Shown: in pieces, positions 11,611-26,060 of the stretch
How positions within the stretch are numbered: the stretch's first letter is position 1
How the letters are laid out: each line of letters opens with the position of its first letter
Assembly (NCBI RefSeq): GCF_041320595.1
Contig: NZ_CP166625.1
Coordinates: 680,660 to 720,000, forward strand
Source: Pleomorphomonas sp. PLEO
GTDB lineage: Bacteria > Pseudomonadota > Alphaproteobacteria > Rhizobiales > Pleomorphomonadaceae
Length of the DNA: 39,341 nucleotides
Reading direction: 5' to 3'
The notes under the pieces: generated by a model
Told to the model about the DNA's origin: nothing
Database searches by the model: none
What the model saw: the letters and a program-made list of their open reading frames with translations, nothing else
Position numbers and translations under genes: made by a program

Positions 11611-12477
11611 TCATCCACCGTTCAGAGCATCGGCTGCCCTCAGCGCCGCTGAGGCACGGTTTTCGACGCCGAGCTTGGCGTAGATCTGCTCGAGGTGTTT
11701 GTTGACGGTGCGCGGCGACAAGCCAAGGATCTCACCGATGTCCTTGTTGGTCTTGCCGCGGCCGATCCACAGAAGAACCTCCGCTTCGCGCGTGGTGATT
11801 CCGAAGCGGGATTTCAGAAGATCGCTTTCGCCCGCCTCGCTGCGCCCGAGTCGGTAAAGGCGCTCGCCCGGACCAGCGGTGCCCACCGGGGCAAGGAGGA
11901 ATGGCGAAGCGTTCGCTACCGCCACCTCCAACGGTCCATCGCCACTCGCGGCAGCCGCCTCGATTGCGCCGGCGATGCCTAGATCGTCGATGAGACGGCT
12001 CGCCTGGGGTGTCGCCCAGACGATACGGCCGTCGGGGTCGAGCGCTACCAAGTGCCGTCCCGCCGCGTCGAGCGCGGTTTGTGCCGAGAGATTGGCGCGG
12101 GCATTGGCGAGGTGAACGCGGATGCGCGCCTTGAGTTCATCAAGGTCGATCGGCTTGGTAAGATAGTCCACGCCGCCGGAGGCAAGGCCACGGACGATAT
12201 GTTCGGTTTCGCTCAATCCGGTCATGAAAATAACTGGCACGTGGGCGAGCGCCGGCATGGCCTTCAGCGACCGACAGGCATCGAAGCCGTCCATTTCCGG
12301 CATCACGGCATCCATCAGGACAACATCCGGGGTCACGCGAAGGGCGATGGCGAGTGCCTGGCGGCCGGATGTGGCGACCAGCACCGTGACCCCCTCGGCC
12401 TCCATGGCCTCGGTGAGGAAGCCAAGCGTCTCGGGACTGTCGTCGACGACGAGGACGGTGTCGCGGCTCTGGGTCAT
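11611..12477 (-). CDS. LuxR-type response regulator (REC-PAS-like-HTH)
   Basis: 288-residue response regulator. The N-terminal receiver has the acidic pair VVDDS (residues 11-13), the phosphoacceptor Asp56 in VVLMDAVMPEMDG and Lys108 in YLTKPIDL. A middle stretch of about residues 130-200 (HLVALDPDGRIVWATPQASRL) resembles a small PAS-like sensor fold, which is unusual for NarL-type regulators. The C-terminal LuxR helix-turn-helix (about residues 222-285) contains TTREAEVLLWIGRGKTNKDI and SPRTVNKHLEQIYAKLGVENR. Its ATG overlaps the stop of the upstream hybrid kinase by four bases (ATGA), so they are translationally coupled and very likely a cognate pair. The probable targets are the divergent urt genes, inferred from position only. 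Confidence 0.92.
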   Translation of the reverse strand: MTQSRDTVLVVDDSPETLGFLTEAMEAEGVTVLVATSGRQALAIALRVTPDVVLMDAVMPEMDGFDACRSLKAMPALAHVPVIFMTGLSETEHIVRGLASGGVDYLTKPIDLDELKARIRVHLANARANLSAQTALDAAGRHLVALDPDGRIVWATPQASRLIDDLGIAGAIEAAAASGDGPLEVAVANASPFLLAPVGTAGPGERLYRLGRSEAGESDLLKSRFGITTREAEVLLWIGRGKTNKDIGEILGLSPRTVNKHLEQIYAKLGVENRASAALRAADALNGG

Positions 12478-15400
12478 GGCGAGGTCATATCCTCGAGGGT
12501 GGCGGTGAAACGAGTGAGATCGAAGGTGGCAAGATGGGTGCTGAGCACCGCGATGGCGGCCGGATCGGCATCCGATTCGGTGAGCGCGGCGAGCTTGCCT
12601 TCAAGTCCGCGTACGTAGCCGATGGCCGCGAGCGACTTCAGCTCTGCGATATCGGCCGCGGAAAACGCGGTTGGTCGTCCCACTGGTCGAGGGCTGGTCG
12701 TTATCGGCTCATCGGTTCCCGTTTCCAGGAAGGTCACACCGAGATGGCGGCCGAGCCGATCGAGCAGGTCGGCGAGCGAAAAGGGTTTGGCCAGCAGGTC
12801 ATCGTGACCGAGGTCGCTCGCCGGCATGGCGCCATCGCCGATGTTGGCCGACAGCATGACGATCGGTGTCCTGACACCGCTCGCTCTTAACCGGCTGACG
12901 AGTTGCCAGCCAGTCATGCCGGGCATGCGGATGTCGACGAAGAGGATATCCGGCTGGGCCGTTTCCATGAGCGCAAGGCAGTCCTCGCCACCGGCTGCCG
13001 TCAACACCGTGAAGCCCAGAGGAGCGAGCATCTCCGTCATCATGTCGCGATGCTCGGCGTTGTCATCGACCACTAGAATGATGCGGCGGGGGCCTATGTA
13101 GCCGGTCACTGGCCGGGCCCCGTCAATGACGGCGGCGCCGACTACGGCTCCAAGCATCAGGCGGACGCAGAAACTTGTGCCAGTGCCCGGCGTCGAGTTG
13201 ATGGCGATATCGCCGCCCATGGTCTCGACCAGCAGGCGGGTGATGGTGAGGCCGAGCCCAAGGCCAGGCACGTTTGTGGAGGCCGCGTGCCGACCACGCT
13301 CGAAGGGCTCGAACACGCGGCCCTGATCGTCCTCGGGAATGCCGATGCCGGTGTCTGCGACGGTGAAGCGCGCCACCTGATTTCGGTAGTCGACGGTGAG
13401 CGTCACGGTGCCTTCCGGCGTGAATTTGATGGCGTTGGAGAGGAGATTGACGAGAACCTGGCGCAGGCGCTTCTCGTCAGTGCGGACCACGGCGGGAAGG
13501 TCGGTGGCGCGGCTGGCGTGGAAGGCAAGTCCGCTTGCCTCCGCTTGCAGGGCGAACATGCCCTCGACCTGATCGAGGAGGTCGTGGATGCGGACATCGG
13601 CCAGCCGGATGCGGAAACGGCCGGCCTCGATGCGGGAAATATCCAGAAGGCCGTCGATCAGGCCGGACAGATGCTCCGCCGAGCGGCGAATTACGCCGAC
13701 GGCGTTGCGCCGCTTATCGGCAATGGCCGGGTCGCGCTCTAGAATCTGAGCATAGCCGAGCACCGCATTGAGCGGGGTGCGCAGTTCGTGACTGAGGCCG
13801 ATGACGTAGCGGCTCTTGGCGTCGCTCGCCGCTTCGGCCTTTTCCTTGGCTTTTTGCAATTCGGCATCGGTTCGTTTGTGAGCGGCGATTTCCTGGAACA
13901 GCGCCTGGGTCTGGCGGGCGCTTTCCTCCTCGGCGACGGCGCGCGAATCACGAGCCAACACGAAGAACCAGACGACGATGCCGATCACCACCGAGAACAC
14001 GAAGAACACCACGGCGAGCGTTCTTCCAATCAGCGCGGCTTCACCCGGATGATCGACGGCAACCTGGCGGTAGACGAACCACATGATGAGGCCCGACAGG
14101 CTAGCCCAGAAGCCAAGCTCCATAAGGTAGCGGCCAAGCCGCGTGTCACCGACGGCGATGAGCGGCGGCGGCAACAGGCGCCCGAATAGGGCCTGGACCT
14201 GAGCCCCAAGCCGCGCCTTTGGCTTGCATCGGTCGTGGCAGCGGGCATCGAGCGAGCAGCAAAGCGAACAGATCGGCGCTTGGTACGCCGGGCAATAGGA
14301 CATGTCCTCCGCTTCGAAATCATGCTCGCAGATAGAGCAAGTCAGCGTCGGCGCCAGTGCGTAGCTTCGGCGGGGCTTGCGAGCCAAATAGAAGCGGCCT
14401 CCAGTGCGCCAGGCAATCAGCGGCGCGGTGAGGAAAGCGACGATGAGTGCCACGAAGGGCGCAAAGGCTTCAGCGACCGGGCCGGCGAGACCAACATGGG
14501 CAAGAAGACCGATCAGAGCCGCCGCGGCCATTGCACCGACGCCGACCGGATTGATGTCCCAAAGGTGCGCCCGTTTAAACTCGATGCCCGGTGGGCTGAG
14601 ACCGAGGGGCTTGTTGATCAGGAGGTCGGCCGAAATGGTGGAGAGCCAGGCGACTGCGACGATGGCGAACACCGCCAGCGTTTGTTCCAACGCTTGGTAG
14701 ATGCCGATCTCCATCAGGAGCAGGGCGATGCAAACGTTGAACACCAGCCAGACGACGCGGCCGGGATGGCTGTGAGTGAGGCGCGAGAAAAAGTTCGACC
14801 AAGCGAGCGAGCCGGCATAGGCGTTCATCACGTTGATCTTGAGCTGGGACACCACGACGAAGATGGCCGTCAGCAGGTAGAGCCAAATTCCTTCCGGCAA
14901 CACGTAGCCAAAGGCGACGGCGTACATCCGCGCCGGTTCGGCGGCGTGCTCGATGGGTACGCCGCTCGACAGCGCGAGCACGGCGAGGAAGGAACCGGCG
15001 ATCATCTTGGGCACGCCGAGCACCACCCATCCTGCACCGGCGAGGAATACAGCCACACGCCGCCGCCGACCCGAGCCCGGTAGCCGTGCCGGGAGGAAAC
15101 GGAGGAAGTCGACCTGTTCGCCAATCTGGGCGGTGAGTGCCAGGATCACCGCGCTGGCCGCGCCAAAGGCGACGAGCTGGAAGCCGCTGCCCGTCACTCC
15201 ATCCCGCCCCGCAAACGCCGCCCAGTCGGAAAAACTGGCGCCATCGGAGAAGGCAATGAAGATGAAGGGAAGGATATTGAGCACGATCCAGATCGGTTGC
15301 GTCAGGATCTGGAAGCGGCTGATCCAAGCAATGCCATGGGTGACCAGCGGGATGACCAGAAGCGTCGAGACGATGTAGCCGACCCAAAGCGGCAAGCCGA

Positions 15401-15833
15401 GGGCCATCTCCAGGGCGGTCGACATGATCGACGCCTCGATGGCGAACAGGATGAAGGTGAAGCTTGCGTAGATGAGGGAGGTCACCGTCGAGCCGATGTA
15501 CCCAAAGCCGGCGCCACGGGTCAGCAGATCGATGTCGACGCCATGGCGGGCAGCGGTGCGGGCAATCGGCCAGCCCACAACGAGCATGGTGAGACTGGCT
15601 GCAAGGATGGCGGCGACGGCGTTTATCGTACCGTAGGACAGCGTGATGGCGCCGCCGATCGCTTCCAGCGCCAGGAAGGAAATTGCGCCGATGGCCGTTT
15701 GAGCGACACGCTCCTGCGACCAGCGCCGCGCCGACTTGGCTGTGAAGCGCAGCGCGTAGTCTTCCAGCGTTTCGTCGGCGACCCAGCGGTTGTACTGGCG
15801 CCGGATAGGAATGATGCGCTGCCGCGCCGCCAT
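12474..15833 (-). CDS. NCS1 permease-like / Cys-cluster / hybrid histidine kinase fusion
   Basis: 1119-residue membrane sensor. Residues about 1-480 resemble an NCS1 (cytosine/purine/hydantoin) transporter: about 12 hydrophobic segments, with SFLALEAIGGAITLSYG and later TAQIGEQVDFLRFLP and KINVMNAYAGSLAWSNFFS. Residues 499-536 hold eight cysteines (499, 502, 514, 522, 525, 526, 532, 536). Two more membrane segments follow (about 572-588 and 603-626), then a coiled coil (about 630-670). The kinase has H-box SHELRTPLNA (His682), N-box LLSNAIKF (Asn800), DTGIGIP (827-833) and GLGLGL (857-862). A receiver has VVDDN and Asp967 in FVDIRMPGMTG with Lys1016. The last 80 residues have no clear domain. 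It is divergent from urtA and coupled to a LuxR regulator, suggesting it senses urea or a related solute. Whether the permease part still transports is unknown. Confidence 0.92.
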   Translation of the reverse strand: MAARQRIIPIRRQYNRWVADETLEDYALRFTAKSARRWSQERVAQTAIGAISFLALEAIGGAITLSYGTINAVAAILAASLTMLVVGWPIARTAARHGVDIDLLTRGAGFGYIGSTVTSLIYASFTFILFAIEASIMSTALEMALGLPLWVGYIVSTLLVIPLVTHGIAWISRFQILTQPIWIVLNILPFIFIAFSDGASFSDWAAFAGRDGVTGSGFQLVAFGAASAVILALTAQIGEQVDFLRFLPARLPGSGRRRRVAVFLAGAGWVVLGVPKMIAGSFLAVLALSSGVPIEHAAEPARMYAVAFGYVLPEGIWLYLLTAIFVVVSQLKINVMNAYAGSLAWSNFFSRLTHSHPGRVVWLVFNVCIALLLMEIGIYQALEQTLAVFAIVAVAWLSTISADLLINKPLGLSPPGIEFKRAHLWDINPVGVGAMAAAALIGLLAHVGLAGPVAEAFAPFVALIVAFLTAPLIAWRTGGRFYLARKPRRSYALAPTLTCSICEHDFEAEDMSYCPAYQAPICSLCCSLDARCHDRCKPKARLGAQVQALFGRLLPPPLIAVGDTRLGRYLMELGFWASLSGLIMWFVYRQVAVDHPGEAALIGRTLAVVFFVFSVVIGIVVWFFVLARDSRAVAEEESARQTQALFQEIAAHKRTDAELQKAKEKAEAASDAKSRYVIGLSHELRTPLNAVLGYAQILERDPAIADKRRNAVGVIRRSAEHLSGLIDGLLDISRIEAGRFRIRLADVRIHDLLDQVEGMFALQAEASGLAFHASRATDLPAVVRTDEKRLRQVLVNLLSNAIKFTPEGTVTLTVDYRNQVARFTVADTGIGIPEDDQGRVFEPFERGRHAASTNVPGLGLGLTITRLLVETMGGDIAINSTPGTGTSFCVRLMLGAVVGAAVIDGARPVTGYIGPRRIILVVDDNAEHRDMMTEMLAPLGFTVLTAAGGEDCLALMETAQPDILFVDIRMPGMTGWQLVSRLRASGVRTPIVMLSANIGDGAMPASDLGHDDLLAKPFSLADLLDRLGRHLGVTFLETGTDEPITTSPRPVGRPTAFSAADIAELKSLAAIGYVRGLEGKLAALTESDADPAAIAVLSTHLATFDLTRFTATLEDMTSP

Positions 15834-16103
15834 GCGCCGTGTTCCTCTTTTGACGCCCCCGTATGCGGCAGGCTGCCTTTTTTTTCGTCAGTGCGATCGG
15901 CGGAACCGTGGTCATACAGCCCGTCTGCCGGGCTCGACGGATTGGCCGCCTCCACCACTGGCAATGTGCAGGGTTCATGCCGGTTTGGAGGGAAGCTTAC
16001 GTTAATCGACGTATAGGGCGTCCGGCCGGCTTGGTCGAAAGTCGGAGTGAGGACCAGACGGGGCAAGGGGCCTCGGCCTCCAGATAAAAACGGGGAACCA
16101 AAG
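15834..16103. promoter_or_regulatory. Divergent control region, permease-kinase / urtA
   Basis: These 270 bases must hold the promoters of both the sensor operon (minus) and urtA (plus). I see no sigma-54 -24/-12 element (GG-N10-GC) and no clear NtrC dyad. A short ACGT-taatcg-ACGT inverted repeat sits near 16000-16015, followed by a TATAGG that could be a -10 but lacks a good -35. A small hairpin (GGCA 15867-15870 / TGCC 15874-15877) followed by eight Ts (15878-15885) is present on the plus strand close to the kinase start. Confidence 0.4.
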
Positions 16104-17396
16104 ATGTCGCAGATCTTCGATCGGCGTCGCACGACGCTTGCTGCCGTTCTCGGCGCGCTTCTCGCCTCTACGATGGCCGGTTATGCCGCCGACGACACCA
16201 TTAAGGTCGGCGTGCTGCACTCGCTGTCGGGTACCATGGCCATTTCCGAGACGACCCTCAAAGACACTGTTCTCTATCTGATCGACGAGCAAAACAAGAA
16301 AGGCGGCGTGCTCGGCAAGAAACTCGAACCGGTGGTGGTCGACCCTGCTTCGAATTGGCCCCTCTTTGCCGAAAAGGCGCGGGAGCTGATCTCGCAGGAC
16401 AAGGTATCGGTAGTGTTCGGCTGCTGGACGTCGGTCAGCCGCAAATCGGTGTTGCCGGTGTTCAAGGAGCTCAACTCGATCCTGTTCTATCCCGTCCAGT
16501 ATGAGGGCGAGGAATCGGAGCGCAACGTCTTCTACACCGGCGCTGCCCCCAACCAGCAGGCCATTCCCGCCGTCGACTACCTGATGAAGCAAGAAGGCGT
16601 GCAACGCTGGGTGCTTGCCGGTACCGACTATGTCTACCCGCGGACCACCAACAAGATCCTTGAGGCCTACCTTAAGGCTAAGGGTGTGTCCGCCGACGAC
16701 ATCATGATCAACTACACGCCGTTCGGTCATTCCGACTGGCAGTCGATCGTCGCTGACATCAAGAAGTTCGGTTCGGCGGGCAAGAAGACTGCCGTCGTCT
16801 CGACCATCAATGGCGATGCCAACGTTCCCTTCTACAAGGAGCTCGCCAACCAGGGCATCAAGGCCGAGGATATTCCGGTTGTCGCCTTCTCGGTGGGCGA
16901 AGAGGAACTGGCCGGCATCGATACCAAGCCGCTGGTCGGCCATCTTGCTGCATGGAACTACTTCGAGTCGGTCGACAGCGAAGCCAATACCGCCTTCATC
17001 GACGGTTGGCACAAGTTCATCAAGAACGACAAGCGCACCACCAACGATCCGATGGAAGCCACCTATATCGGCTTCAATGCTTGGGTGAAGGCGGTTGAGG
17101 CGGCTGGCACGACAAACACCGATACGGTGATCGATACACTGGTCGGCACCACCGTGCCGAATCTCTCGGGCGGCTATGCCACCATCATGCCGAACCATCA
17201 CATCACCAAGCCGGTGCTGATCGGCGAGATCCAGGACAATGGCCAGTTCGATATCGTCTCGACGACGGCACCGGTGGTTGGCGACGAATGGTCGGACTAC
17301 CTCGAAGGATCCAAGGACCTGATCTCCGATTGGCGCAAGCCAATGTCCTGCGGCAACTTCAACGTCGTCACGGGCAAGTGCGGCGGCGGTTCCTGA
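16104..17396 (+). CDS. urtA: Urea ABC transporter substrate-binding protein
   Basis: 430-residue periplasmic binding protein for the high-affinity urea ABC importer. The ATG at 16104 is chosen over an in-frame upstream start at 16047, because it gives a normal twin-arginine-free Sec signal peptide (charged FDRRR, hydrophobic core LAAVLGALLAS, cleavage near AGYA-AD) and has a GGGGA ribosome-binding site. The mature protein begins TIKVGVLHSLSGTMAISE, characteristic of the UrtA/FmdD branch of the leucine-binding-like family. SNWPLFAEKARELI, VFGCWTSVSRKSVLPV and NPVQYEGEE-like (YPVQYEGEESERN) segments match UrtA. The protein ends with two cysteines (SCGNF...GKCGGG), likely a disulfide. It heads urtABCDE and is divergent from the permease-kinase gene. 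A strong hairpin follows at 17414-17443. Confidence 0.95.
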   Translation: MSQIFDRRRTTLAAVLGALLASTMAGYAADDTIKVGVLHSLSGTMAISETTLKDTVLYLIDEQNKKGGVLGKKLEPVVVDPASNWPLFAEKARELISQDKVSVVFGCWTSVSRKSVLPVFKELNSILFYPVQYEGEESERNVFYTGAAPNQQAIPAVDYLMKQEGVQRWVLAGTDYVYPRTTNKILEAYLKAKGVSADDIMINYTPFGHSDWQSIVADIKKFGSAGKKTAVVSTINGDANVPFYKELANQGIKAEDIPVVAFSVGEEELAGIDTKPLVGHLAAWNYFESVDSEANTAFIDGWHKFIKNDKRTTNDPMEATYIGFNAWVKAVEAAGTTNTDTVIDTLVGTTVPNLSGGYATIMPNHHITKPVLIGEIQDNGQFDIVSTTAPVVGDEWSDYLEGSKDLISDWRKPMSCGNFNVVTGKCGGGS

Positions 17397-17443: not shown

Positions 17444-17698
17444 GCATTGATAGGCCTAGCCGAGTAAATCGGCATTTGAATCACGTATATATGGGCTTTG
17501 CATTAAATATAAGCTTAGAAAATCAATTGAAAACAATAGATTACTGGTGGTTCTCTAGGCTCCGACATGTGCTCCGGGCGTAGTATTTGGGCGGACGCAA
17601 ATGTCGGAGTCGAACCACTGGAACACCCGCTGATCAGATCGCACTCACCTGATCGTCAAGCGAATGCTCCAGCGGTCCCTGACCGGAACGGACATGCC
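17444..17698 (+). promoter_or_regulatory. AT-rich spacer and possible structured leader of urtB
   Basis: The 302-base urtA-urtB gap holds no gene I can support. Positions about 17461-17550 are strikingly AT-rich for this genome, a possible promoter or protein-binding segment. Hairpin I follows: CTCCGACAT (17560-17568) pairs with ATGTCGGAG (17601-17609), continues inward after a G/A mismatch through TGC/GCA and, past one bulged C, TCCG/CGGA, leaving a 15-base loop. Hairpin II: GATCAG (17632-17637) pairs with CTGATC (17649-17654), enclosed by CCGCT (17627-17631) and AGCGG (17671-17675). The urtB start is 17699. Together these could be a regulatory RNA leader; no known riboswitch consensus was recognised. 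Confidence 0.4.
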
Positions 17699-19315
17699 AT
17701 GAGCTTCTTGCGCCTCTTCACCATTCTATTCGCGCTGATCGTCAGTTTTCAGCCGGCACTTGCCAGCCGCATCGCCGACGCCGACCTTTCGTCCCGCGTT
17801 ACGGCTCTCGGTGCCGGTAGCTTCGACGATCTGGAGAAGGCCATCGCCAATCTTGCCGCCACCGGCGACGATCGTGTGCCGGCTATTCTCGATCGGCTCG
17901 GCAACGGCGAATTGACGGTGCGCAAGGCCGATGGCCGGGTGTTCTTTGCCGACAAAGCCGGTACCGACTTTCGCCTCACAGATCCGGCGACCGGCGCCGA
18001 TGCCGGGCTGGCGCCCAAGGCGACCGTCGAGAAGGTGAAGGTCAACAATCGCATCCGTCGCGCCATCGCTTCGGCGGTGGGCGCATTGACACTGATGAAC
18101 CCCGACCCGGCTGTACGTCGCGCCGCCGCCGAGGCGGTGATGAAATCGGCCGACGTTGCCGCCCTTCCCGTGTTGGAGCAGGCAATCGCCGCCGAGACCG
18201 TCGCCGATGTCCGCGCCGCGATGGTGGCGGCGCGCGCCACGGCGCTGCTCGCATCCGACGCGCCGGAGGCCGACAAGGTAACTGCCATCGCCGCCATTGC
18301 CGATCTCGGCAGCCGCGATGCTCTCGGCTTCCTGTCCGGCTACACGGCCACCGAAGGCGCCGTTGGCGATGCCGCGCGCAAGGCGGCGGCGGTCATCCAA
18401 AGCCGGCTTATGCTTTGGGATGTCGGCCAGAACCTCTGGTACGGCCTGTCGCTCGGCTCGGTGCTGCTGCTCGCCGCCATCGGACTTGCCATCACCTTCG
18501 GGGTGATGGGCGTCATCAACATGGCGCATGGCGAGATGGTGATGCTGGGGGCCTACGCCACCTTCACGGTGCAGGAGGTGATTCGGACTTCTTGGCCTGA
18601 TCTGTTCGATTATTCGCTGTTCATCGCCCTGCCGGTTGCCTTTTTAACGGCCGCTCTCGCCGGCATTCTGATCGAACGGCTGGTCATTCGCTGGCTTTAT
18701 GGCCGGCCGCTCGAAACGCTGCTTGCCACTTGGGGCGTATCCCTCATCCTGCAGCAGGCGGTGCGCTCGCTTTATGGGGCCAATAATCGCGAGGTCGGCA
18801 ATCCCTCGTGGATGTCCGGCTCGTTCTCCATGGGCGACATCCAGATCACTTGGACACGCCTCTGGATCATCCTGTTTGCGATCGCCGTATTTCTGGCGCT
18901 GATCGCCGTTCTCAAACGCACCCGGCTTGGTCTTGAGATGCGCGCGGTGACGCAGAACCGGCAGATGGCCGCCGCTGTCGGCATTCGAACCCCACTGGTC
19001 GATGCGCTGACCTTTGGCCTCGGCTCGGGTATCGCCGGTCTTGCCGGCGTGGCGCTCAGCCAGATCGACAATGTGTCGCCCAACCTCGGGCGCGGCTACA
19101 TCATCGACAGCTTCATGGTGGTGGTGTTCGGCGGTGTCGGTAATCTCTGGGGTACGCTGGTCGGCGCGTTGACGCTCGGTGTCGCCAACAAGATGCTGGA
19201 GCCTTATGCCGGGGCCGTTCTCGGCAAGATCATCCTGTTGGTCGCGATCATCCTGTTCATCCAGAAACGGCCGCGCGGCCTGTTCGCTCTGAAGGGTCGG
19301 GCGGTGGAAGCATGA
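17699..19315 (+). CDS. urtB: Urea ABC transporter permease UrtB
   Basis: 538-residue inner-membrane permease of the LivH type. The ATG at 17699 opens on a signal peptide (FLRLFTILFALIVSFQPALA), matching UrtB proteins, so the longer in-frame reading from 17567 is rejected. Residues about 24-235 form the extra N-terminal periplasmic domain that distinguishes UrtB from ordinary LivH: an alpha-helical, HEAT-like alanine-rich region. The membrane part starts near residue 240 with YGLSLGSVLLLAAIGLAITF and contains the LivH signature NMAHGEMVMLGAY, and later GLGSGIAGLAGVALSQ. Its ribosome-binding site is weak (GGAACGGAC). The stop overlaps the urtC start by four bases (ATGA). It pairs with UrtC to form the urea translocation pathway. 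Confidence 0.95.
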   Translation: MSFLRLFTILFALIVSFQPALASRIADADLSSRVTALGAGSFDDLEKAIANLAATGDDRVPAILDRLGNGELTVRKADGRVFFADKAGTDFRLTDPATGADAGLAPKATVEKVKVNNRIRRAIASAVGALTLMNPDPAVRRAAAEAVMKSADVAALPVLEQAIAAETVADVRAAMVAARATALLASDAPEADKVTAIAAIADLGSRDALGFLSGYTATEGAVGDAARKAAAVIQSRLMLWDVGQNLWYGLSLGSVLLLAAIGLAITFGVMGVINMAHGEMVMLGAYATFTVQEVIRTSWPDLFDYSLFIALPVAFLTAALAGILIERLVIRWLYGRPLETLLATWGVSLILQQAVRSLYGANNREVGNPSWMSGSFSMGDIQITWTRLWIILFAIAVFLALIAVLKRTRLGLEMRAVTQNRQMAAAVGIRTPLVDALTFGLGSGIAGLAGVALSQIDNVSPNLGRGYIIDSFMVVVFGGVGNLWGTLVGALTLGVANKMLEPYAGAVLGKIILLVAIILFIQKRPRGLFALKGRAVEA

Positions 19316-20457
19316 TCACCACATTTCTCATCGACAGCCTCGATCGGCGCGGACGCATCGTGGTCGGCCTGCTCGTGGCGCTCGCTTTGCTGGTGCCGGC
19401 GGGCAACCTTCTGGTGCCGGAGGCAAATGTCTTCCACGTGTCGACCTACCAGCTCACCCTTTGCGGCAAGTATCTTACCTACGCCTTGCTGGCGCTGTCC
19501 GTCGATCTCGTCTGGGGCTATTGCGGCATCCTATCGCTTGGTCACGGGGCCTTCTTCGCGCTCGGCGGCTATGCCATGGGCATGTATCTGATGCGGCAGA
19601 TCGGCACACGCGGCGTCTATGCCGATCCGGTGCTGCCCGATTTCATGGTGTTCCTCAACTGGAAGGAGCTGCCCTGGTTCTGGCAGGGCTTCGACATGGC
19701 CTGGTACGCCTGTCTGATGGTGATCCTGGTGCCGGGCATCATCGCCTTGCTGTTCGGCTGGCTGTCGTTCCGGAGCCGGGTCACCGGTGTCTATCTGTCC
19801 ATCATCACCCAGGCGCTCACCTATGCGCTGCTGCTCGCCTTCTTCCGCAACGACATGGGCTTCGGTGGCAATAATGGCCTTACCGATTTCAAGGACATCC
19901 TGGGCTTCCCGATCCAGGCGCCCGGCACCCGCGCGGTACTGTTCGCCGCTTCGGCACTGATGTTGGCGCTCGGCTTCATCGTCGCATCGGCGGTTGTCCG
20001 TTCCAAGCTCGGCAAGGTGCTGGTCGCCATTCGCGATGCCGAGAGCCGTACTCGATTCATCGGTTACCGTGTCGAGCACTACAAGCTGTTCGTCTGGACG
20101 CTGTCCGCCGTGATGGCGGGCATCGCCGGCGCGCTCTACGTGCCGCAGGTCGGCATCATCAATCCGTCCGAATTCGATCCCGCCGCATCCATCGAAGCGG
20201 TGATCTGGGTGGCGGTCGGCGGCCGGGGTACGCTGGTCGGTCCGCTGATCGGCGCCGTGGCCGTCAATTTCGGCAAGACTTGGTTCACCGGTGTTCTGCC
20301 CGAGGTTTGGCTCTACGCGCTCGGCGCTCTGTTCGTGGTGGTGACGCTGTTCCTGCCGCGCGGCATCGTCGGCCTGTGGGACAAGCTGGTTACTCGACGG
20401 GAGAAGCCGGCCAAGGAAGTGGATGGTTCCGGACGGCAGGCGGGAGAAGCAGCATGA
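19312..20457 (+). CDS. urtC: Urea ABC transporter permease UrtC
   Basis: 381-residue inner-membrane permease of the LivM type, partner of UrtB. It has about ten hydrophobic segments and the LivM motif ILSLGHGAFFALGGYAMGM near residue 75. GFGGNNGLTDF and the ABC-contact loop region AIRDAESRTRFIGY are also typical; the latter engages the UrtD/UrtE ATPases. VGIINPSEFDPAASIEAVIW and the VAVGGRGTLVGPLIGA stretch match UrtC. The ATG at 19312 lies within the urtB stop (ATGA), and the urtC stop in turn overlaps urtD (ATGA), so the three are translationally coupled. The charged C-terminus after GLWDKLVTRRE is cytoplasmic. Confidence 0.95.
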   Translation: MITTFLIDSLDRRGRIVVGLLVALALLVPAGNLLVPEANVFHVSTYQLTLCGKYLTYALLALSVDLVWGYCGILSLGHGAFFALGGYAMGMYLMRQIGTRGVYADPVLPDFMVFLNWKELPWFWQGFDMAWYACLMVILVPGIIALLFGWLSFRSRVTGVYLSIITQALTYALLLAFFRNDMGFGGNNGLTDFKDILGFPIQAPGTRAVLFAASALMLALGFIVASAVVRSKLGKVLVAIRDAESRTRFIGYRVEHYKLFVWTLSAVMAGIAGALYVPQVGIINPSEFDPAASIEAVIWVAVGGRGTLVGPLIGAVAVNFGKTWFTGVLPEVWLYALGALFVVVTLFLPRGIVGLWDKLVTRREKPAKEVDGSGRQAGEAA

Positions 20458-21206
20458 CCGATAAGGCGGAGGGCTCGCTGCTCTATCTCGACGACGTCTC
20501 GGTATCCTTCGATGGTTTCAGAGCGATCAATCGGTTGTCTCTGGTGCTGGAGCCGGGTGAAATGCGGGCTATCATCGGCCCCAACGGTGCCGGCAAGACC
20601 ACGATGATGGATATCATCACCGGCAAGACGCGGCCCGATGCGGGCGACGTGCTGTTCGATGGTTCCGTGGACCTCACGCGACTTGACGAGGCGGCCATTG
20701 CCAACCTCGGCATCGGTCGTAAATTCCAAAAGCCGACGGTGTTCGAAAGTCACAGCGTCGAGGACAACATCGCATTGGCGTTGAAGGGTCGGCGAGGCGC
20801 CTTTGCAGCGTTGTTCCACCGGCGTTCGGTCGCCGAGCAGGAGCGCATCGACGCGCTGCTCGCCACCATCCGTCTCGCCGACAAGCGCGATCTTCTCGCC
20901 GCTAGGCTGTCGCACGGCCAGAAACAGTGGCTGGAAATCGGCATGCTGCTCGCGCAGGAACCTCGGCTTCTTCTGGTCGACGAGCCGGCTGCCGGCATGA
21001 CCGACGCCGAGACGGCGGAAACGGCGATCCTTCTCAAGGAGATTGCCAAGACGCAGTCGGTGGTGGTGGTCGAACACGACATGACCTTTGTTAGGGCGCT
21101 TGGCGTCAAGGTAACGGTTCTGCACGAGGGCTCGGTGCTGGCCGAGGGCTCGCTCGATGCCGTGTCGGCCAACCCAAAGGTGATCGAGGTCTACCTCGGG
21201 CGGTGA
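20454..21206 (+). CDS. urtD: Urea ABC transporter ATP-binding protein UrtD
   Basis: 250-residue cytoplasmic ABC ATPase of the LivG type. The ATG at 20454 overlaps the urtC stop by four bases and has a CGGGAGAAG ribosome-binding site; earlier in-frame starts lie inside urtC and are rejected. Walker A is GPNGAGKTT (residues 42-50), the signature is LSHGQ (152-156) and Walker B is LLLVDEP (172-178). LSHGQ in place of LSGGQ is normal for UrtD and LivG-like subunits. The switch histidine is in VVVEHDMTFV. IGRKFQKPTVFESHSVEDN is typical of UrtD. It works as a heterodimer with UrtE, powering urea uptake. Confidence 0.95.
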   Translation: MTDKAEGSLLYLDDVSVSFDGFRAINRLSLVLEPGEMRAIIGPNGAGKTTMMDIITGKTRPDAGDVLFDGSVDLTRLDEAAIANLGIGRKFQKPTVFESHSVEDNIALALKGRRGAFAALFHRRSVAEQERIDALLATIRLADKRDLLAARLSHGQKQWLEIGMLLAQEPRLLLVDEPAAGMTDAETAETAILLKEIAKTQSVVVVEHDMTFVRALGVKVTVLHEGSVLAEGSLDAVSANPKVIEVYLGR

Positions 21207-21219
21207 AGGAACGGAGACT

Positions 21220-21915
21220 ATGCTGAACGTTGAAGCCGTCGATCTCCACTACGGTGCTGCCCAGGCGCTGCGAAAAGTGTCGTTGTCCGCCACCGCGGGG
21301 CGCGTCACCGCGGTGCTCGGCCGCAACGGCGTCGGCAAGACCTCCCTGATGCGGGCCATTGCCGGGCTGCAGTCGATCTCACACGGGGCGATCCGCCTCG
21401 ATGGCGATGATCTCGTCGGCCTTTCACCCTACGAGCGGGTACGGCGCGGTGTCGCCATCGTTCCGCAGGGGCGTGAAATCTTTCCCTTGCTGACAGTCGA
21501 AGAGAACCTCCAGACCGGCTTTGCCACGCTGAAGCGTGTCGACCGCTATGTGCCGGATATGGTCTACGACCTCTTTCCGGTCCTGAAGGACATGCTGCGC
21601 CGGCGTGGCGGCGATCTTTCCGGTGGCCAGCAGCAGCAGCTCGCCATTGGCCGAGCGCTGGTAACGCGGCCGCGCCTCCTCGTCCTTGATGAGCCGACCG
21701 AGGGAATCCAGCCGTCAATTATCAAGGACATCGGCCACGCCATCACGTTTCTGCGCCGGCAGGGCGACATGGCCATTGTTCTGGTGGAACAGTATTTCGA
21801 CTTCGCCAAAGACCTCGCCGACGATTTTGTCGTCATGGAGCGCGGCGAGGTGGTGATGGCAGGCAGTCGTGACAGCATGGACGAAGAGGCCGTCCGCGGC
21901 AAAATAGCCGTCTGA
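21220..21915 (+). CDS. urtE: Urea ABC transporter ATP-binding protein UrtE
   Basis: 231-residue cytoplasmic ABC ATPase of the LivF type. Walker A is GRNGVGKTS (residues 34-42), the signature LSGGQ (133-137) and Walker B LLVLDEP (153-159); the segment TEGIQPSIIKDIG following Walker B is characteristic of UrtE. The switch region is VLVEQYFDFA, with glutamine in the place of the usual histidine, as in many LivF-type subunits. The ATG at 21220 follows GGAACGGAG 13 bases after urtD. It closes urtABCDE. In many bacteria ure genes follow, but here the next gene is an Rrf2 regulator. No terminator is evident in 21916-22032. Confidence 0.95.
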   Translation: MLNVEAVDLHYGAAQALRKVSLSATAGRVTAVLGRNGVGKTSLMRAIAGLQSISHGAIRLDGDDLVGLSPYERVRRGVAIVPQGREIFPLLTVEENLQTGFATLKRVDRYVPDMVYDLFPVLKDMLRRRGGDLSGGQQQQLAIGRALVTRPRLLVLDEPTEGIQPSIIKDIGHAITFLRRQGDMAIVLVEQYFDFAKDLADDFVVMERGEVVMAGSRDSMDEEAVRGKIAV

Positions 21916-22032: not shown

Positions 22033-22527
22033 ATGCGACTGACCAGCTATTCCAACTATTCGCTGCGTGTGCTCCTGGCCGCCGCCGCCCGTTCGCCGCG
22101 CCTGACCACCATCCGCGAGGTGGCCGAGGCTTTCGATCTGCCACAATCACACCTCGTCAAGTGTGTCCATCAGCTCGGTACCTGGGGCTATCTTGAAACC
22201 GTGCGCGGCAATCGAGGTGGCTTCCGCCTCAAGCGATCGGCTGCATCGGTGTCGATCGGCGAAGTCGTTCGCCGGACCGAGGATGGTCTGTCGATCGTGG
22301 AATGTCTCGATCCGGAAACCAACACATGTCCGCTGACCGATCGCTGCCGGATGAGTCAGGTGTTGCGGCGGGCTACCGACGCGTTCCTCGACGTGCTTGA
22401 CCGGCTGACGCTCGCCGATGTTGCCGGCAACGAGGCGGAGTTCCGAGCGCTGCTCGACGGGGTCGATCAGGCCCGACCTATTTCCGCGGTTGGTTGTGTG
22501 GCCGAGCCGTTCGCTGTCCGCGCCTGA
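22033..22527 (+). CDS. Rrf2 family Fe-S transcriptional regulator (NsrR-like)
   Basis: 164-residue Rrf2 regulator. The winged helix-turn-helix begins at the N-terminus (MRLTSYSNYSLRVLLAAA) with the wing RGNRGGFRL. Three cysteines in the cluster loop (Cys91, Cys99, Cys105; C-x7-C-x5-C, with TCPLTDRC) match the NsrR-like layout that binds an iron-sulfur cluster and responds to nitric oxide, although other Rrf2 ligands are possible. A GGGGAGGCGG ribosome-binding site precedes ATG 22033. It follows urtE by 117 bases in the same direction and faces a second Rrf2 gene tail to tail, 46 bases apart. Since cytochrome bd is a common NO-tolerant oxidase, control of the neighbouring cyd genes is plausible but inferred. 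Confidence 0.92.
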   Translation: MRLTSYSNYSLRVLLAAAARSPRLTTIREVAEAFDLPQSHLVKCVHQLGTWGYLETVRGNRGGFRLKRSAASVSIGEVVRRTEDGLSIVECLDPETNTCPLTDRCRMSQVLRRATDAFLDVLDRLTLADVAGNEAEFRALLDGVDQARPISAVGCVAEPFAVRA

Positions 22528-22573
22528 AGGGTTGTTTCGGAGCGTATACTCGCCAGCAAGCTTGCCTTGGCTG

Positions 22574-22990
22574 CTAGGCGGATTTCAGCGCCTGCGCGTG
22601 GTCATGGTCGATGAGGATGTCGGCAACGGAGATTGCCGCCAGTTCATCCCGCATCGCCCGGTAGGCATCGGCACAAACTCCGGCTAACGGACAGCTATCG
22701 CAGGCTCGCGTATCGGCGCGCCCACAGATGCGCATGTCATCCTCGGGCTCGAACAGGTCGATGACCGATAACACCGAAATTTTGGCGGCGGGCCGGCCGA
22801 GACGATAGCCGCCGCCGCGCCCGCGACGGCCAACCAGCAGGCCGGCGCGAGCGAGCGCGTTGCAGGATCGGATGACGCGTGCCTCGGGCATGCCGAGCCG
22901 GCTGGCCATTTCAGGCAATGTTATCGCCTCGCCATCGACGCATATCATCAAAATACGAAGGGCGCCGTGGGTCACAGCATTGATTTTCAT
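22574..22990 (-). CDS. Rrf2 family Fe-S transcriptional regulator, four-cysteine variant
   Basis: 138-residue Rrf2 regulator on the minus strand, divergent from cydABX. The helix-turn-helix and wing are intact (LPEMASRLGMPEARVIRSC and GRGRGGGYRLGRP). The cluster loop has four cysteines, Cys89, Cys97, Cys100 and Cys106 (C-x7-C-x2-C-x5-C), one more than in the neighbouring Rrf2 gene, and Cys43 lies in the recognition helix. The start at 22990 has a TTTGGAGGAAGG ribosome-binding site. Its position, sharing an upstream region with cydA, makes it the better candidate for direct cyd control. The specific signal (NO, oxygen, iron or redox) cannot be read from sequence. Confidence 0.9.
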   Translation of the reverse strand: MKINAVTHGALRILMICVDGEAITLPEMASRLGMPEARVIRSCNALARAGLLVGRRGRGGGYRLGRPAAKISVLSVIDLFEPEDDMRICGRADTRACDSCPLAGVCADAYRAMRDELAAISVADILIDHDHAQALKSA

Positions 22991-23314
22991 GGCGACCTTC
23001 CTCCAAAGGTATATTGACTGTATAGCTTTATATCGATAGTTCTGTCCATGTCGATTGCCGGGCGGGGAGCTGCCGGCGGTCAGCCGGTGTCAAAGCCGGA
23101 CACGGGGGTTGCAAAGATGATGGTCGTTCATGCCGTCGCTATCGGTGGTTGCCGCCGGAAGCGCACGGTTGACTCTGTCTGCCCGCCCTCCGAATCGATG
23201 AGTTCTGCCTCCCGCCGGCCTGCCGGCGACGCGGCGAGCGCTTGAGGAAGAACGTGGCGGTTCGAACGCGACAGGTGTTCGCGGGCCGCCTTCGCTGAGA
23301 GGATGTCGGCCATC
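22991..23314. promoter_or_regulatory. Divergent control region, Rrf2 / cydA
   Basis: No gene is supported here. Positions 23008-23041 are an AT-rich island in GC-rich DNA, containing TATATTGACTGTATAG and TTTATATCGATAG, close to the Rrf2 start; this is the best candidate for promoter and operator sequences. TTGACT at 23014-23019 could be a plus-strand -35. Further down, CGCCGG (23213-23218) / CCGGCG (23223-23228) forms a small hairpin in what would be the cydA leader. No FNR/FixK box (TTGAT-N4-ATCAA) was seen. Confidence 0.4.
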
Positions 23315-24898
23315 ATGTTCGATCAGACATTCGTGGAGTTGTCGCGCTGGCAATTCGCCGCCACGGCAATGTACCACTTCATTTTCGTGCCGCTGACGCT
23401 GGGGCTCGCCTGGCTGCTTGTCATCATGGAAACCGTCTATGTGATGACCGGCAAGGAAATCTACCGGGACATGACGAAATTCTGGGGCAAGTTGTTTGGT
23501 ATCAACTTCGCCCTCGGCGTCACGACCGGCCTGACCATGGAGTTCCAGTTCGGAACCAACTGGTCTTATTACTCGCATTACGTCGGCGATATTTTCGGAG
23601 CGCCGCTGGCCATTGAAGGTCTGATGGCCTTCTTCCTCGAATCGACGTTCGTCGGTCTGTTCTTCCTCGGTTGGGAAAAGCTCAGCCGGCGCCAGCATCT
23701 GGGCGTCACCTTCCTGACGGCGCTCGGCTCAAACTTGTCAGCTCTTTGGATTCTGGTCGCCAACGGCTGGATGCAGAACCCGGTCGGCTCCATGTTTTCG
23801 CCCGAGACGATGCGCATGGAGATGCAGTCCTTTTCAGAGGTGCTGTTCAATCCAGTCGCCCAAGTGAAGTTCGTCCACACCGTCGCCGCCGGCTACACCA
23901 CTGCGTCGATGTTCGTGCTCGGCATTTCCTCTTGGTACCTCCTCAAGGGCCGTGACGTTGCTTTCGCCAAGCGCTCGTTCGCCGTCGCCGCCGGTTTCGG
24001 CCTCGCTGCTTGCCTTTCTGTGATCGTGCTCGGTGATGAGAGCGGCTATGAACTCGGCGATGTGCAGAGGGTCAAGCTCGCTGCCATTGAGGGCGAGTGG
24101 GAAACCCAGCCCGCTCCGGCTCCTTTCAACCTGATCGGTTTCCCCTCTCAGGAAGAGAAGGTCACCCGCGGGGCGATCGAGATCCCCTATGCTCTCGGCC
24201 TCATCGCCACTCGGTCGCTGGACAAGCCTGTGCATGGCCTTAACGACCTGCGCGAAGAGCACCTTGCGCGTATCCGTTCCGGTCAGGAGGGCTACGCGGC
24301 GATGATGAAGATCCGCGCTGGCGACACCACGCCGGAAACGCGCACCGTCTTCGATGCCCACTCCAAGGACATCGGCTTCGGGCTTCTGCTCAAGCAGTTC
24401 GTCGAAGACCCGGCCACCGCCACCGAACAGCAGATTCAGGCCGCCGCCGACAGCACGATCCCCAAGGTATGGCCGCTGTTCTGGGCCTTCCGCTTCATGG
24501 TCGGCTTCGGCTTCGTCATGCTGATCATCTTCGGCTCGGCGTTCTATGTCAGTGCGCGGCGCAGCCATGAGAAGAATCGCTGGTTGCTCAGGGCGGCGCT
24601 GTTTGCCATCCCGCTGCCATGGCTTGCCTGCGAACTCGGCTGGTTCGTCGCCGAATTCGGTCGTCAGCCTTGGGCGATTGGTGAGGTGCTTCCGACCTTC
24701 CTCGGTACGTCCAGCCTCACCACGACCGACCTGATCTTCTCGCTGACCGGTTTCCTGGTGCTCTACACCGGCCTGCTGATCGTCGAGGCCTATCTGATGT
24801 TCAAGTTCGCCCGCCTCGGCCCGAGTTCGCTCGGTACCGGCCGCTATCATTTCGAGACGCAGACCCCAACATCGATCCGCGTCTCGGCGGCAGAATGA
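23315..24898 (+). CDS. cydA: Cytochrome bd ubiquinol oxidase subunit I
   Basis: Haem-bearing subunit of the high-affinity quinol oxidase cytochrome bd, inner membrane. ATG 23315 (527 residues) is preferred to the in-frame ATG 23303, because the GAGAGG ribosome-binding site abuts 23303 but lies about a dozen bases before 23315, and because [22 protein letters not shown] aligns with the usual CydA start. His21 (AMYHF) corresponds to the haem b595 ligand and His188 ([10 protein letters not shown]) to a haem b558 ligand. [13 protein letters not shown] has the two conserved proton-path glutamates. The quinol-binding Q-loop is of the long, E. coli-like type. [16 protein letters not shown] is the family signature. 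It is followed by cydB after ten bases. Confidence 0.96.
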
Positions 24899-24908
24899 GG
24901 AGACCGCC

Positions 24909-26060
24909 ATGTTCGACTATGAAACGCTGAAGTTTATCTGGTGGATCCTCGTCGGCGCGCTGCTGATAGGCTTCGCCATCACTGACGGTATGGACATGGG
25001 CGTCGGTTCGCTCCTGCCCTTTATCGCCAAGACCGATGCCGAGCGGCGCATTGCCATCAACACCGTCGGCCCGCACTGGGACGGCAATCAGGTGTGGCTG
25101 ATCACCGCTGGCGGCGCCCTGTTCGCCGCTTGGCCGATGGTCTATGCCGCTGCCTTCTCCGGCTTCTACATGGCCATGCTCCTGGTGCTGTTTGCGCTGT
25201 TCTTCCGGCCGGTCGGCTTCGACTACCGCTCGAAGCTCGACAATCCGAAGTGGCGTTCGACCTGGGATTGGGCCTTGTTTGCCGGCGGAGCCATCCCGGC
25301 GCTGATCTTCGGCGTCGCTTTCGGTAACCTTTTGCAGGGCGTACCCTTCCACCTCGACGAGATCCTGCGCGCCCACTACCAGGGCTCGTTCATCTTCGCC
25401 CTCCTGCCGCTGCTCAACCCCTTCGCGCTTCTAGCGGGTGTCATTTCGCTCGGCATGCTGGTCGTGCACGGGGCCGTCTGGCTTCAGCTTCGTGCCTCCG
25501 GTGTCGTGGCGGCGCGGTCGCAAGCATTGGTCGTTCGGCTGGCACCGGTGATCGCCCTGCTGTTTGCCGTGGCCGGTGTTTGGGTCTGGCTCGGCATCGA
25601 CGGCTATCGCATCGTGTCGCAGCCACCGCTCGATGCCCTGCCCAACCCGCTTGGCAAGCAGGTCGTGGTAGCGCCGGGGGCTTGGTTCGACATCTATGCG
25701 AAGATGCCGATCACCATCCTGGCACCGGCGATCGGTCTCATCGGGCCGCTGTTGACTGCTCTTCTCGCGAAGGCCAGCCGTCCCGGGATCGCCTTCGTGA
25801 CGTCGGCGCTCGGCATCGCCGGTATCATCGGTACCGCCGGTTTGTCGATGTTCCCCTTCGTGATGCCATCGAGCCTCGACCCCAACTCCAGCCTGACCAT
25901 GTGGGACGCCACGTCCAGTCACCTGACGCTCAACGTCATGTTCTGGGCAGTCATCATCTTCTTGCCGATCGTGCTCGCCTATACCGTCTGGTGTTACTGG
26001 CGGATGTGGGGTCGCGTTACGGCGGAAGACATCGACGCTCGCTCGCATTCGGCTTACTGA
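24909..26060 (+). CDS. cydB: Cytochrome bd ubiquinol oxidase subunit II
   Basis: 383-residue integral membrane partner of CydA, with eight or nine hydrophobic segments. The N-terminus FDYETLKFIWWILVGALLIGF followed by TDGMDMGVGSLLPF and the segment NTVGPHWDGNQVWLI are diagnostic of CydB. The latter, GPxWDGNEVW-like, is the family signature, with Gln in place of the more common Glu. PFVMPSSLDPNSSLTMWDA and SSHLTLNVMF near the C-terminus are also typical. A GAGGAGA ribosome-binding site lies between cydA and cydB. The gene is followed 16 bases later by the small subunit gene cydX. Confidence 0.96.
   Translation: MFDYETLKFIWWILVGALLIGFAITDGMDMGVGSLLPFIAKTDAERRIAINTVGPHWDGNQVWLITAGGALFAAWPMVYAAAFSGFYMAMLLVLFALFFRPVGFDYRSKLDNPKWRSTWDWALFAGGAIPALIFGVAFGNLLQGVPFHLDEILRAHYQGSFIFALLPLLNPFALLAGVISLGMLVVHGAVWLQLRASGVVAARSQALVVRLAPVIALLFAVAGVWVWLGIDGYRIVSQPPLDALPNPLGKQVVVAPGAWFDIYAKMPITILAPAIGLIGPLLTALLAKASRPGIAFVTSALGIAGIIGTAGLSMFPFVMPSSLDPNSSLTMWDATSSHLTLNVMFWAVIIFLPIVLAYTVWCYWRMWGRVTAEDIDARSHSAY

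Follow-up and report, generated by a model that had tools for sequence, protein, structure and literature searches.

What does a bacterial histidine kinase sense when its N-terminal half resembles a membrane transporter and its gene stands back to back with an operon for urea import? The question is posed by a 39,341-nucleotide stretch of Pleomorphomonas sp. PLEO (RefSeq assembly GCF_041320595.1, contig NZ_CP166625.1, positions 680,660 to 720,000), hereafter the window, in which a single reading frame couples an NCS1-type transporter domain to a hybrid histidine kinase and is followed by the gene for a LuxR-type response regulator. Dedicated urea receptors are, to our knowledge, little known in bacteria. 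Comparison of this kinase with its relatives leads us to consider it probable that the protein is a transporter-derived receptor, or 'transceptor', whose ligand is urea or a small amide much like it, and that it drives the neighbouring urt genes through the dyad TACG-N8-CGTA. The kinase, its predicted partner and the dyad are made up as follows, in coordinates of the window:

12474..15833, minus strand: hybrid histidine kinase with an N-terminal NCS1-type transporter domain, 1119 amino acids (aa), ATG start
14373..15833, minus strand: NCS1-type transporter domain, residues 1-487 (hhalign, mixed profile against the PDB, AF2 with Foldseek)
14226..14339, minus strand: eight-cysteine cluster, residues 499-536, probable zinc-binding element (8/8 Cys invariant, 141/141)
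13932..14141, minus strand: additional membrane helices that run on into the signalling helix, residues ~565-634 (AF2, hydropathy)
13620..13817, minus strand: HisKA with phospho-acceptor His682 (Pfam, residues 673-738; H682 kept in 141/141)
13155..13481, minus strand: HATPase_c with Asn800, DTGIGIP at 827 and GLGLGL at 857 (Pfam, residues 785-893; N800 kept in 141/141)
12753..13079, minus strand: receiver domain (Response_reg) with Asp967 (Pfam, residues 919-1027; D967 kept in 141/141)
12489..12656, minus strand: conserved C-terminal element (IGYvRGIeaKL...FDL), without a Pfam match
11611..12477, minus strand: response regulator, receiver plus LuxR-type (GerE) DNA-binding domain, predicted partner (Pfam)
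15998..16013, no strand assigned: predicted operator TACGTTAATCGACGTA, a TACG-N8-CGTA dyad (comparison of upstream regions)

An initial annotation of this DNA had read the frame as one polypeptide that starts with some 480 residues resembling a nucleobase/hydantoin permease of the NCS1 type and continues with a cysteine cluster, additional membrane helices, the intact core of a kinase and a receiver. Its coordinates and residue positions proved exact, and His682, Asn800, the DTGIGIP and GLGLGL motifs and Asp967 all stand where it had put them. With HisKA, HATPase_c, receiver and catalytic residues all intact by Pfam and by alignment, the protein classes as a hybrid histidine kinase; the phospho-acceptor, Asn800 and Asp967 are identical throughout the 141 aligned kinase-family sequences over 1000 aa on which the conservation counts in this text are based. 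The C-terminal element gives no sign of being a histidine phosphotransfer (Hpt) domain, since its sole histidine in the window kinase, H1100, is present in 33 of the 141 sequences and is thus not conserved.

The NCS1 assignment held at the level of profiles and structures only. As a single sequence the window protein did not match PF02133, either at full length (E <= 0.001) or with residues 1-487 alone even at E <= 10, so that the resemblance is remote, and a single-sequence search of the PDB with the transporter domain likewise returned no match. A family profile based on 55 aligned sequences matched NCS1 in hhalign at 98.4% (E 5.8e-15) and SSS/SLC5 (SSF), the negative control, at 0.1%; membership of SLC5/SSS was rejected on this score, and PF00474 (SLC5/SSF) has no match in the window's genome. 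Searched against PDB sequences, a mixed profile recovered CodB (2.7e-25) and Mhp1 (8.4e-18 and 8.7e-18); the kinase-family profile alone recovered neither, its one weak match being to a cysteine-rich PDZ-binding protein (E 1.8) in the cysteine region. An AF2 model of residues 1-660 (pLDDT 84, pTM 0.83) had CodB (3.6e-10) and Mhp1 (1.5e-9) as its top Foldseek matches in the PDB, with SLC5 proteins ranking below. The Klebsiella stand-alone relative L258, 42% identical to the kinase's domain, reaches 38.1 bits against the PF02133 cut-off of 23.5, and six other close stand-alone relatives scanned alongside it gave no match. Judged by profile and model, then, the N-terminal domain is NCS1-type, with a predicted LeuT-type fold nearest to NCS1 structures.

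Behind this domain, the cysteine cluster of the annotation stood up as eight residues, C499, C502, C514, C522, C525, C526, C532 and C536, which probably bind zinc. Of the extra helices, the second is strongly hydrophobic (peak 597-634) and was upheld; the first, 565-594, is less so and fell below the hydropathy threshold. In the AF2 model the corresponding helices span residues 565-594 and 596-659.

Divergent from the kinase gene, as the annotation had also described, lies urtABCDE, each gene of which passes the urea NCBIfam cut-off:

16104..17396, plus strand: urtA, urea ABC transporter binding protein (TIGR03407, 546 bits against a cut-off of 493)
17567..19315, plus strand: urtB, permease with a long N-terminal extension (TIGR03409)
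19312..20457, plus strand: urtC, permease (TIGR03408)
20280..21206, plus strand: urtD, ATP-binding protein (TIGR03411)
21220..21915, plus strand: urtE, ATP-binding protein (TIGR03410)

This linkage is established well beyond the window by the gene order of relatives. Among 137 kinase loci read (L058-L114 and L142-L221), the kinase is divergent from a urtA-type gene in 132, and four of the five others lie at contig ends with 2-771 bases of upstream sequence; a LuxR-type regulator match was found in 131 of the 132. These loci fall into two sets that do not mix. In 84 urea-type loci UrtA is at least 60% identical to that of the window, ureC occurs within the fetched stretch in 15, and fmdA in none. 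In 48 amide-type loci UrtA is 35-42% identical to the window's, fmdA and fmdB are both present in 45 (one example of each was named by NCBIfam), and ureC is absent from all. On plasmids, a Klebsiella kinase and regulator are divergent from urtABCDE-amiF (L223, CP024508.1), and a Burkholderia vietnamiensis plasmid carries an ABC operon with formamidase, FmdB and nitrilase. No gene for purine, hydantoin or allantoin breakdown was named in the annotated loci of the kinase or its close stand-alone relatives, and a survey proposed with the annotation, of whether homologues co-occur with urt or with hydantoin/purine genes, thus came out for urt. The consistent company of hydrolases of urea, formamide and short amides points to the ligand class: the partners either import urea, with urease in some loci, or import short amides and come with formamidase, and such neighbourhoods strongly suggest that the sensed ligand is urea or a short amide. 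The annotation had proposed direct sensing of urea or a related nitrogen compound; that proposal is supported and is narrowed by these partners, and neither of the two sequence-level outcomes set against it, absence of NCS1 similarity or homologues lying mostly away from nitrogen-transport genes, came about.

Neither the LuxR-type regulator, whose gene overlaps the 3' end of the kinase gene by 4 bp, nor the dyad had been mentioned in the annotation; the dyad upstream of urtA, as a predicted site tied to the kinase pair, is new here. Its centre in the window is ~98 bp from the likely urtA ATG at 16104 and 172 bp from the kinase ATG, lying upstream of both. Of 122 non-redundant regions upstream of the kinase, 62 contain the perfect core; shuffling in two-base blocks yields 0.3 on average, and of 591 segments picked at random in the same loci 4 have it. 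The core ranks first among 3328 four-base dyads, the best non-nested runner-up reaching 18. Measured from an estimated UrtA start, it falls at most 350 bp upstream of urtA in 82 of the 84 urea-type and 38 of the 48 amide-type loci (median 95 bp). Where the kinase and urtA starts are at least 600 bp apart (33 loci), the site is near urtA in all 33 and near the kinase in one. Upstream of urtA genes in kinase-free genomes it is absent (0/57, a sample of high-scoring places in which one genome, G137, has a weak stand-alone-type match), as it is upstream of urtA genes unlinked to the kinase in kinase-bearing genomes (0/18, three of these genomes, G166, G212 and G220, bearing a receiver-less kinase only); kinase-linked urtA genes in the same comparison have it in 13 of 14. 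A Fisher test of 82/84 against 0/57 gives p 1e-37 with relatedness ignored, and within one family (f27) the site is present in three of four kinase-linked loci (L307, L308 and L326; not L303) and in none of four kinase-free genomes (L304, L305, L306, L321). Proximity to urtA, the 33 separated loci and absence where the kinase is not linked together tie the dyad to urtA and the kinase pair, a co-occurrence that is established at the level of sequence. On the Klebsiella plasmid the core is likewise situated between kinase and urtA, and in Methylovirgula it stands upstream of fmdA and of an amidase gene. Sinorhizobium meliloti 1021, whose kinase is on pSymB, has the core in its locus (L222), and in strain ml28 this site is ~100 bp upstream of urtA.

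A wider regulon was sought and rejected. The window's genome has two perfect TACGTN6ACGTA sites, and a search allowing one mismatch gave 27 matches against 35 for the reversed control. The stricter form TACGTCN4GACGTA, which the window's own site does not fit, occurs at 44 sites in 43 of 248 genomes of the order, 30 at kinase/urt loci and 14 elsewhere by hand count; with 34 in the reversed-pattern controls, no second target stands out. The second perfect site in the window's genome (L294, G000:C1:3646708-3646723) lies upstream of an open reading frame (ORF) that by eye resembles a [NiFe]-hydrogenase small subunit, and may be there by chance. A different dyad, TGCT-N8-AGCA, was seen in 38 of the 57 kinase-free urtA upstream regions, a count made without a shuffle control; it is perhaps the site of another urt regulator.

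Transporters of the same clade that are not fused to a kinase lead in the same direction. Such loci were read for nine of the 18 records that exceed 50% identity to P0002, and these stand-alone relatives are 40-47% identical to the kinase's transporter domain. In seven of the nine the gene has a hydrolase gene close by, which is urease in three, formamidase in three and aliphatic amidase in one: it adjoins urease in Acinetobacter lwoffii, A. ursingii and K. pneumoniae, formamidase in Moraxella osloensis and aliphatic amidase in Arthrobacter, and is near formamidase in Tsukamurella. In Methylovirgula the transporter stands beside a kinase pair with formamidase and amidase, the kinase lying between fmdA and the permease, and in Acinetobacter baumannii it faces a kinase pair. 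The latter kinase (NZ_CP104448.1) is 45% identical to that of the window over residues 3-1041 and thus belongs to the family; from the published primers to amsS, amsR and the promoter of the pair (PMC10112286), six gene-specific parts were compared with this locus, four matching exactly, one with 3 mismatches and one not being found, and the pair can therefore be taken as AmsSR, a described two-component system. A perfect core lies between amsS and the permease gene (L277:14562).

Kinases without a receiver form a branch beside the fused forms in the tree (L053 by Pfam, L054-L056 by length), and the four loci examined all carry fmdA, fmdB and a gene for an AmiS/UreI-type channel (L057, a contig fragment, was left out). 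Next to two of these kinases are proteins (L055:9273-10502 and L053:4346-5596) in which a receiver precedes a kinase ATPase domain, the L055 protein also having HisKA; they perhaps form a two-kinase relay at formamidase loci.

Within the transporter domain, a motif in transmembrane helix 6 (TM6), QI(G/A)EQ, sets the clade apart. Gln236, Glu239 and Gln240 are invariant in the kinases and in the seven stand-alone proteins compared, and the motif is absent from the ten other NCS1 proteins compared (the distant stand-alone L043 among them, CodB and Mhp1 not); seven of the ten have a gap at Glu239. The motif is a plausible determinant. Within residues 1-489, urea-type and amide-type kinases differ at only four positions with fixation of 90% or more in both sets (L129F, M336T, L343I and F389Y); these were rejected as specificity residues because they are too confounded by descent.

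On the preferred reading, signalling would begin with the NCS1-type domain binding its ligand in the membrane, whereupon a conformational change would pass through the cysteine element and the helices that follow it to the kinase core. His682 would then be phosphorylated, and the phosphate would reach the LuxR-type regulator either directly or by way of the receiver and then an Hpt encoded elsewhere. Once phosphorylated, the regulator is the likely binder of TACG-N8-CGTA, ~100 bp upstream of urtA, from where it would presumably activate rather than repress, turning on high-affinity urea import; in amide-type loci the same sensor would drive a short-amide ABC transporter with formamidase. That the kinase senses urea or a short amide is strongly suggested by the evidence set out above.

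Other readings of the same protein have to be weighed against this one. The kinase might sense redox state or membrane energy through its eight cysteines, through ion coupling or both, as proposed for AmsS, with the urea and amide genes as one output. All eight cysteines are indeed invariant, NCS1 proteins are ion-coupled by family knowledge and by the portion of PMC13390362 available, and in the available text of PMC10112286 the amsSR promoter is induced by carbonyl cyanide m-chlorophenyl hydrazone (CCCP), AmsSR mutants are described through respiration and central metabolism, and a cysteine/quinone redox model is proposed for AmsS. Such a sensor, however, would not predict a site tied to urea and amide import, and the cysteine tail is not kinase-specific, being found on unfused transporters as well, in full on the Methylovirgula one and reduced to two C-x2-C pairs on the aligned gammaproteobacterial ones. 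The tail is largely lost by alignment from two actinobacterial permeases, L261 and L262, and is thus probably not needed for the transporter fold. We regard redox or energy sensing as unlikely. The sensed compound might instead be one of the usual ligands of NCS1 proteins (a nucleobase, hydantoin or allantoin), urea uptake being controlled because these compounds break down to urea; the fold itself and the best structural matches, which are transporters of cytosine and hydantoin, would suit this idea, as would L043:3923-5566, a more distant stand-alone NCS1 protein whose gene adjoins a hydantoinase B gene. Breakdown genes for such compounds, however, went unnamed in the annotated loci, formamidase linkage has no purine rationale, and the clade's TM6 motif is foreign to the other NCS1 proteins compared, so that we give this idea little credence. 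L043 also lies near a UrtA-like gene; it carries a similar C-x2-C tail, which is accordingly not confined to the urea/amide clade.

It could also be that the transporter domain binds no ligand and instead monitors the Urt ABC transporter, perhaps through contact with UrtBC or UrtA, an arrangement that a nearly constant neighbourhood of Urt-type permeases would favour. Yet the kinase occurs without urtA beside it in A. baumannii and Methylovirgula, where its neighbour is a stand-alone permease, and its NCS1 domain keeps 110 residues invariant across the 141 sequences; a pure reporter of Urt seems to us quite improbable. Direct sensing of urea or a short amide by the domain is thus the reading we retain, and several observations weigh against it. 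Besides the phenotypes described for AmsSR and the hydantoinase neighbour of L043, urtA is missing from the surroundings of one kinase whose 10-kb flank is complete (L191), and one of the nine stand-alone loci, L260 of Streptomyces, has no urea or amide gene near the transporter. The perfect core is missing near urtA in 2 of 84 urea-type and 10 of 48 amide-type loci, which may use a variant site, and it was not found near the stand-alone permease/urease loci without a kinase (L225, L258, L264). All loci, moreover, are related by descent, and the counts are not independent.

The family is widespread. Matches to kinase residues 1-631 were found in 20 of 20 genomes of the window's own family, in 63 of 249 sampled genomes of its order (4 of the 63 weak) and in 60 of 398 sampled genomes of its phylum (8 of the 60 weak or short). 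A species-level genome scan gave at least 595 stretches encoding a relative, of which 80 were retained, and the closest named relatives among the matches listed are Pleomorphomonas. Plasmid records with a match at E <= 1e-60 number 531, 340 of them from Klebsiella, some rows matching the transporter part only or the kinase part only; two plasmid-labelled records, NZ_CP104448.1 (4.1 Mb) and CP125156.1 (5.4 Mb), look like chromosomes. In the one Klebsiella plasmid read, the kinase pair is also near clpK/hsp20 heat-shock genes and an acetamidase/ABC cluster. In the tree, the 32 receiver-bearing fused forms make up one clade (support 96/96, 97% of bootstrap trees), so that one fusion event suffices, and two of its members, AmsS and the kinase of the Klebsiella plasmid, carry a long-branch flag. 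In genome G004 (locus L110) three separate ORFs make up the kinase, corresponding to query residues 1-433, 428-570 and onward, which reflects a broken gene or an assembly error in a genome that is 86% complete.

The window's urt operon calls for a few further remarks. The urtA ORF opens at a GTG at 16047, and the ATG at 16104 looks the better start; the true start of urtD is probably near 20470, TIGR03411 matching from residue 67 of the ORF. The UrtB extension, of ~280 residues, has a weak HEAT_2 match (27.7 bits, at the cut-off). After urtE, positions 22033-26057 hold an Rrf2-family regulator gene and cytochrome bd oxidase genes, and a urease alpha gene lies in the same genome ~140 kb past the end of the window.

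Taken more broadly, the results incline us, on balance, to recognize an unrecognised urea/short-amide subfamily of NCS1, which would comprise stand-alone permeases beside urease, formamidase or amidase genes and, fused once, the sensing domain of a widespread kinase. This kinase would act as a direct transceptor that activates urt or fmd genes through TACG-N8-CGTA, AmsSR would be a member, and the urea ABC/formamidase cluster on Klebsiella plasmids would be under its control. The kinase thus becomes a widespread candidate urea receptor with a regulator, a likely operator and a target promoter in hand. With it, the transporter-kinase fusions gain an NCS1-type member and AmsSR can be read differently. 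It also points out a regulator beside the urea-transport/formamidase cluster of Klebsiella plasmids and hints at possible substrates of transporters currently annotated as 'cytosine' or 'allantoin' permease.

No description of a fusion between an NCS1 protein and a histidine kinase was found among the open-access PMC matches listed, a search that did not cover subscription papers. AmsSR resembles the window pair in family, in the position of the regulator gene downstream of the kinase and in the dyad core within the locus; it differs in that amsS (L277:11015-14488) faces a gene for a stand-alone NCS1-type permease and not an ABC operon. In the portion of PMC10112286 available, 14 membrane helices are counted in AmsS and no transporter domain or family is named, and Pfam finds only signalling domains in the protein. 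The terms 'urea', 'amidase', 'permease' and 'symporter' do not occur in that paper's main text on AmsSR, as far as it was accessible, nor does the word urea in the accessible main text of two later papers that mention AmsSR. Similarly, the Klebsiella urea transporter/AmiF cluster has been described in a paper whose accessible main text does not contain the terms histidine kinase or response regulator (PMC13060141).

Among transporters without a kinase, CodB and Mhp1 are like the kinase's domain in fold and sequence profile and are themselves transporters of cytosine and hydantoin. MetT, an NCS1 metformin transporter, offers a precedent for an open-chain, non-heterocyclic nitrogen ligand; it is a plain transporter with no kinase attached, according to the part of PMC13390362 available. 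The ammonium sensor kinase of Kuenenia likewise fuses a transporter for a nitrogen compound to a kinase, but its domain is Amt/Rh and not NCS1, according to the excerpt available (PMC5764959). Nearest in design are CbrA, CrbS and RpuS, in which, by the available portions of the sources (PMC13022988, PMC7096432, PMC5715377, PMC9100948), a transporter domain of the LeuT-type fold is joined to a histidine kinase, and CrbR, which like the window's regulator is LuxR-type, uses an inverted repeat. These kinases pair an SLC5 transporter with a STAC domain, whereas that of the window has an NCS1 domain, and where CbrA has its STAC and PAS domains, the window kinase places its eight-cysteine element and extra helices.

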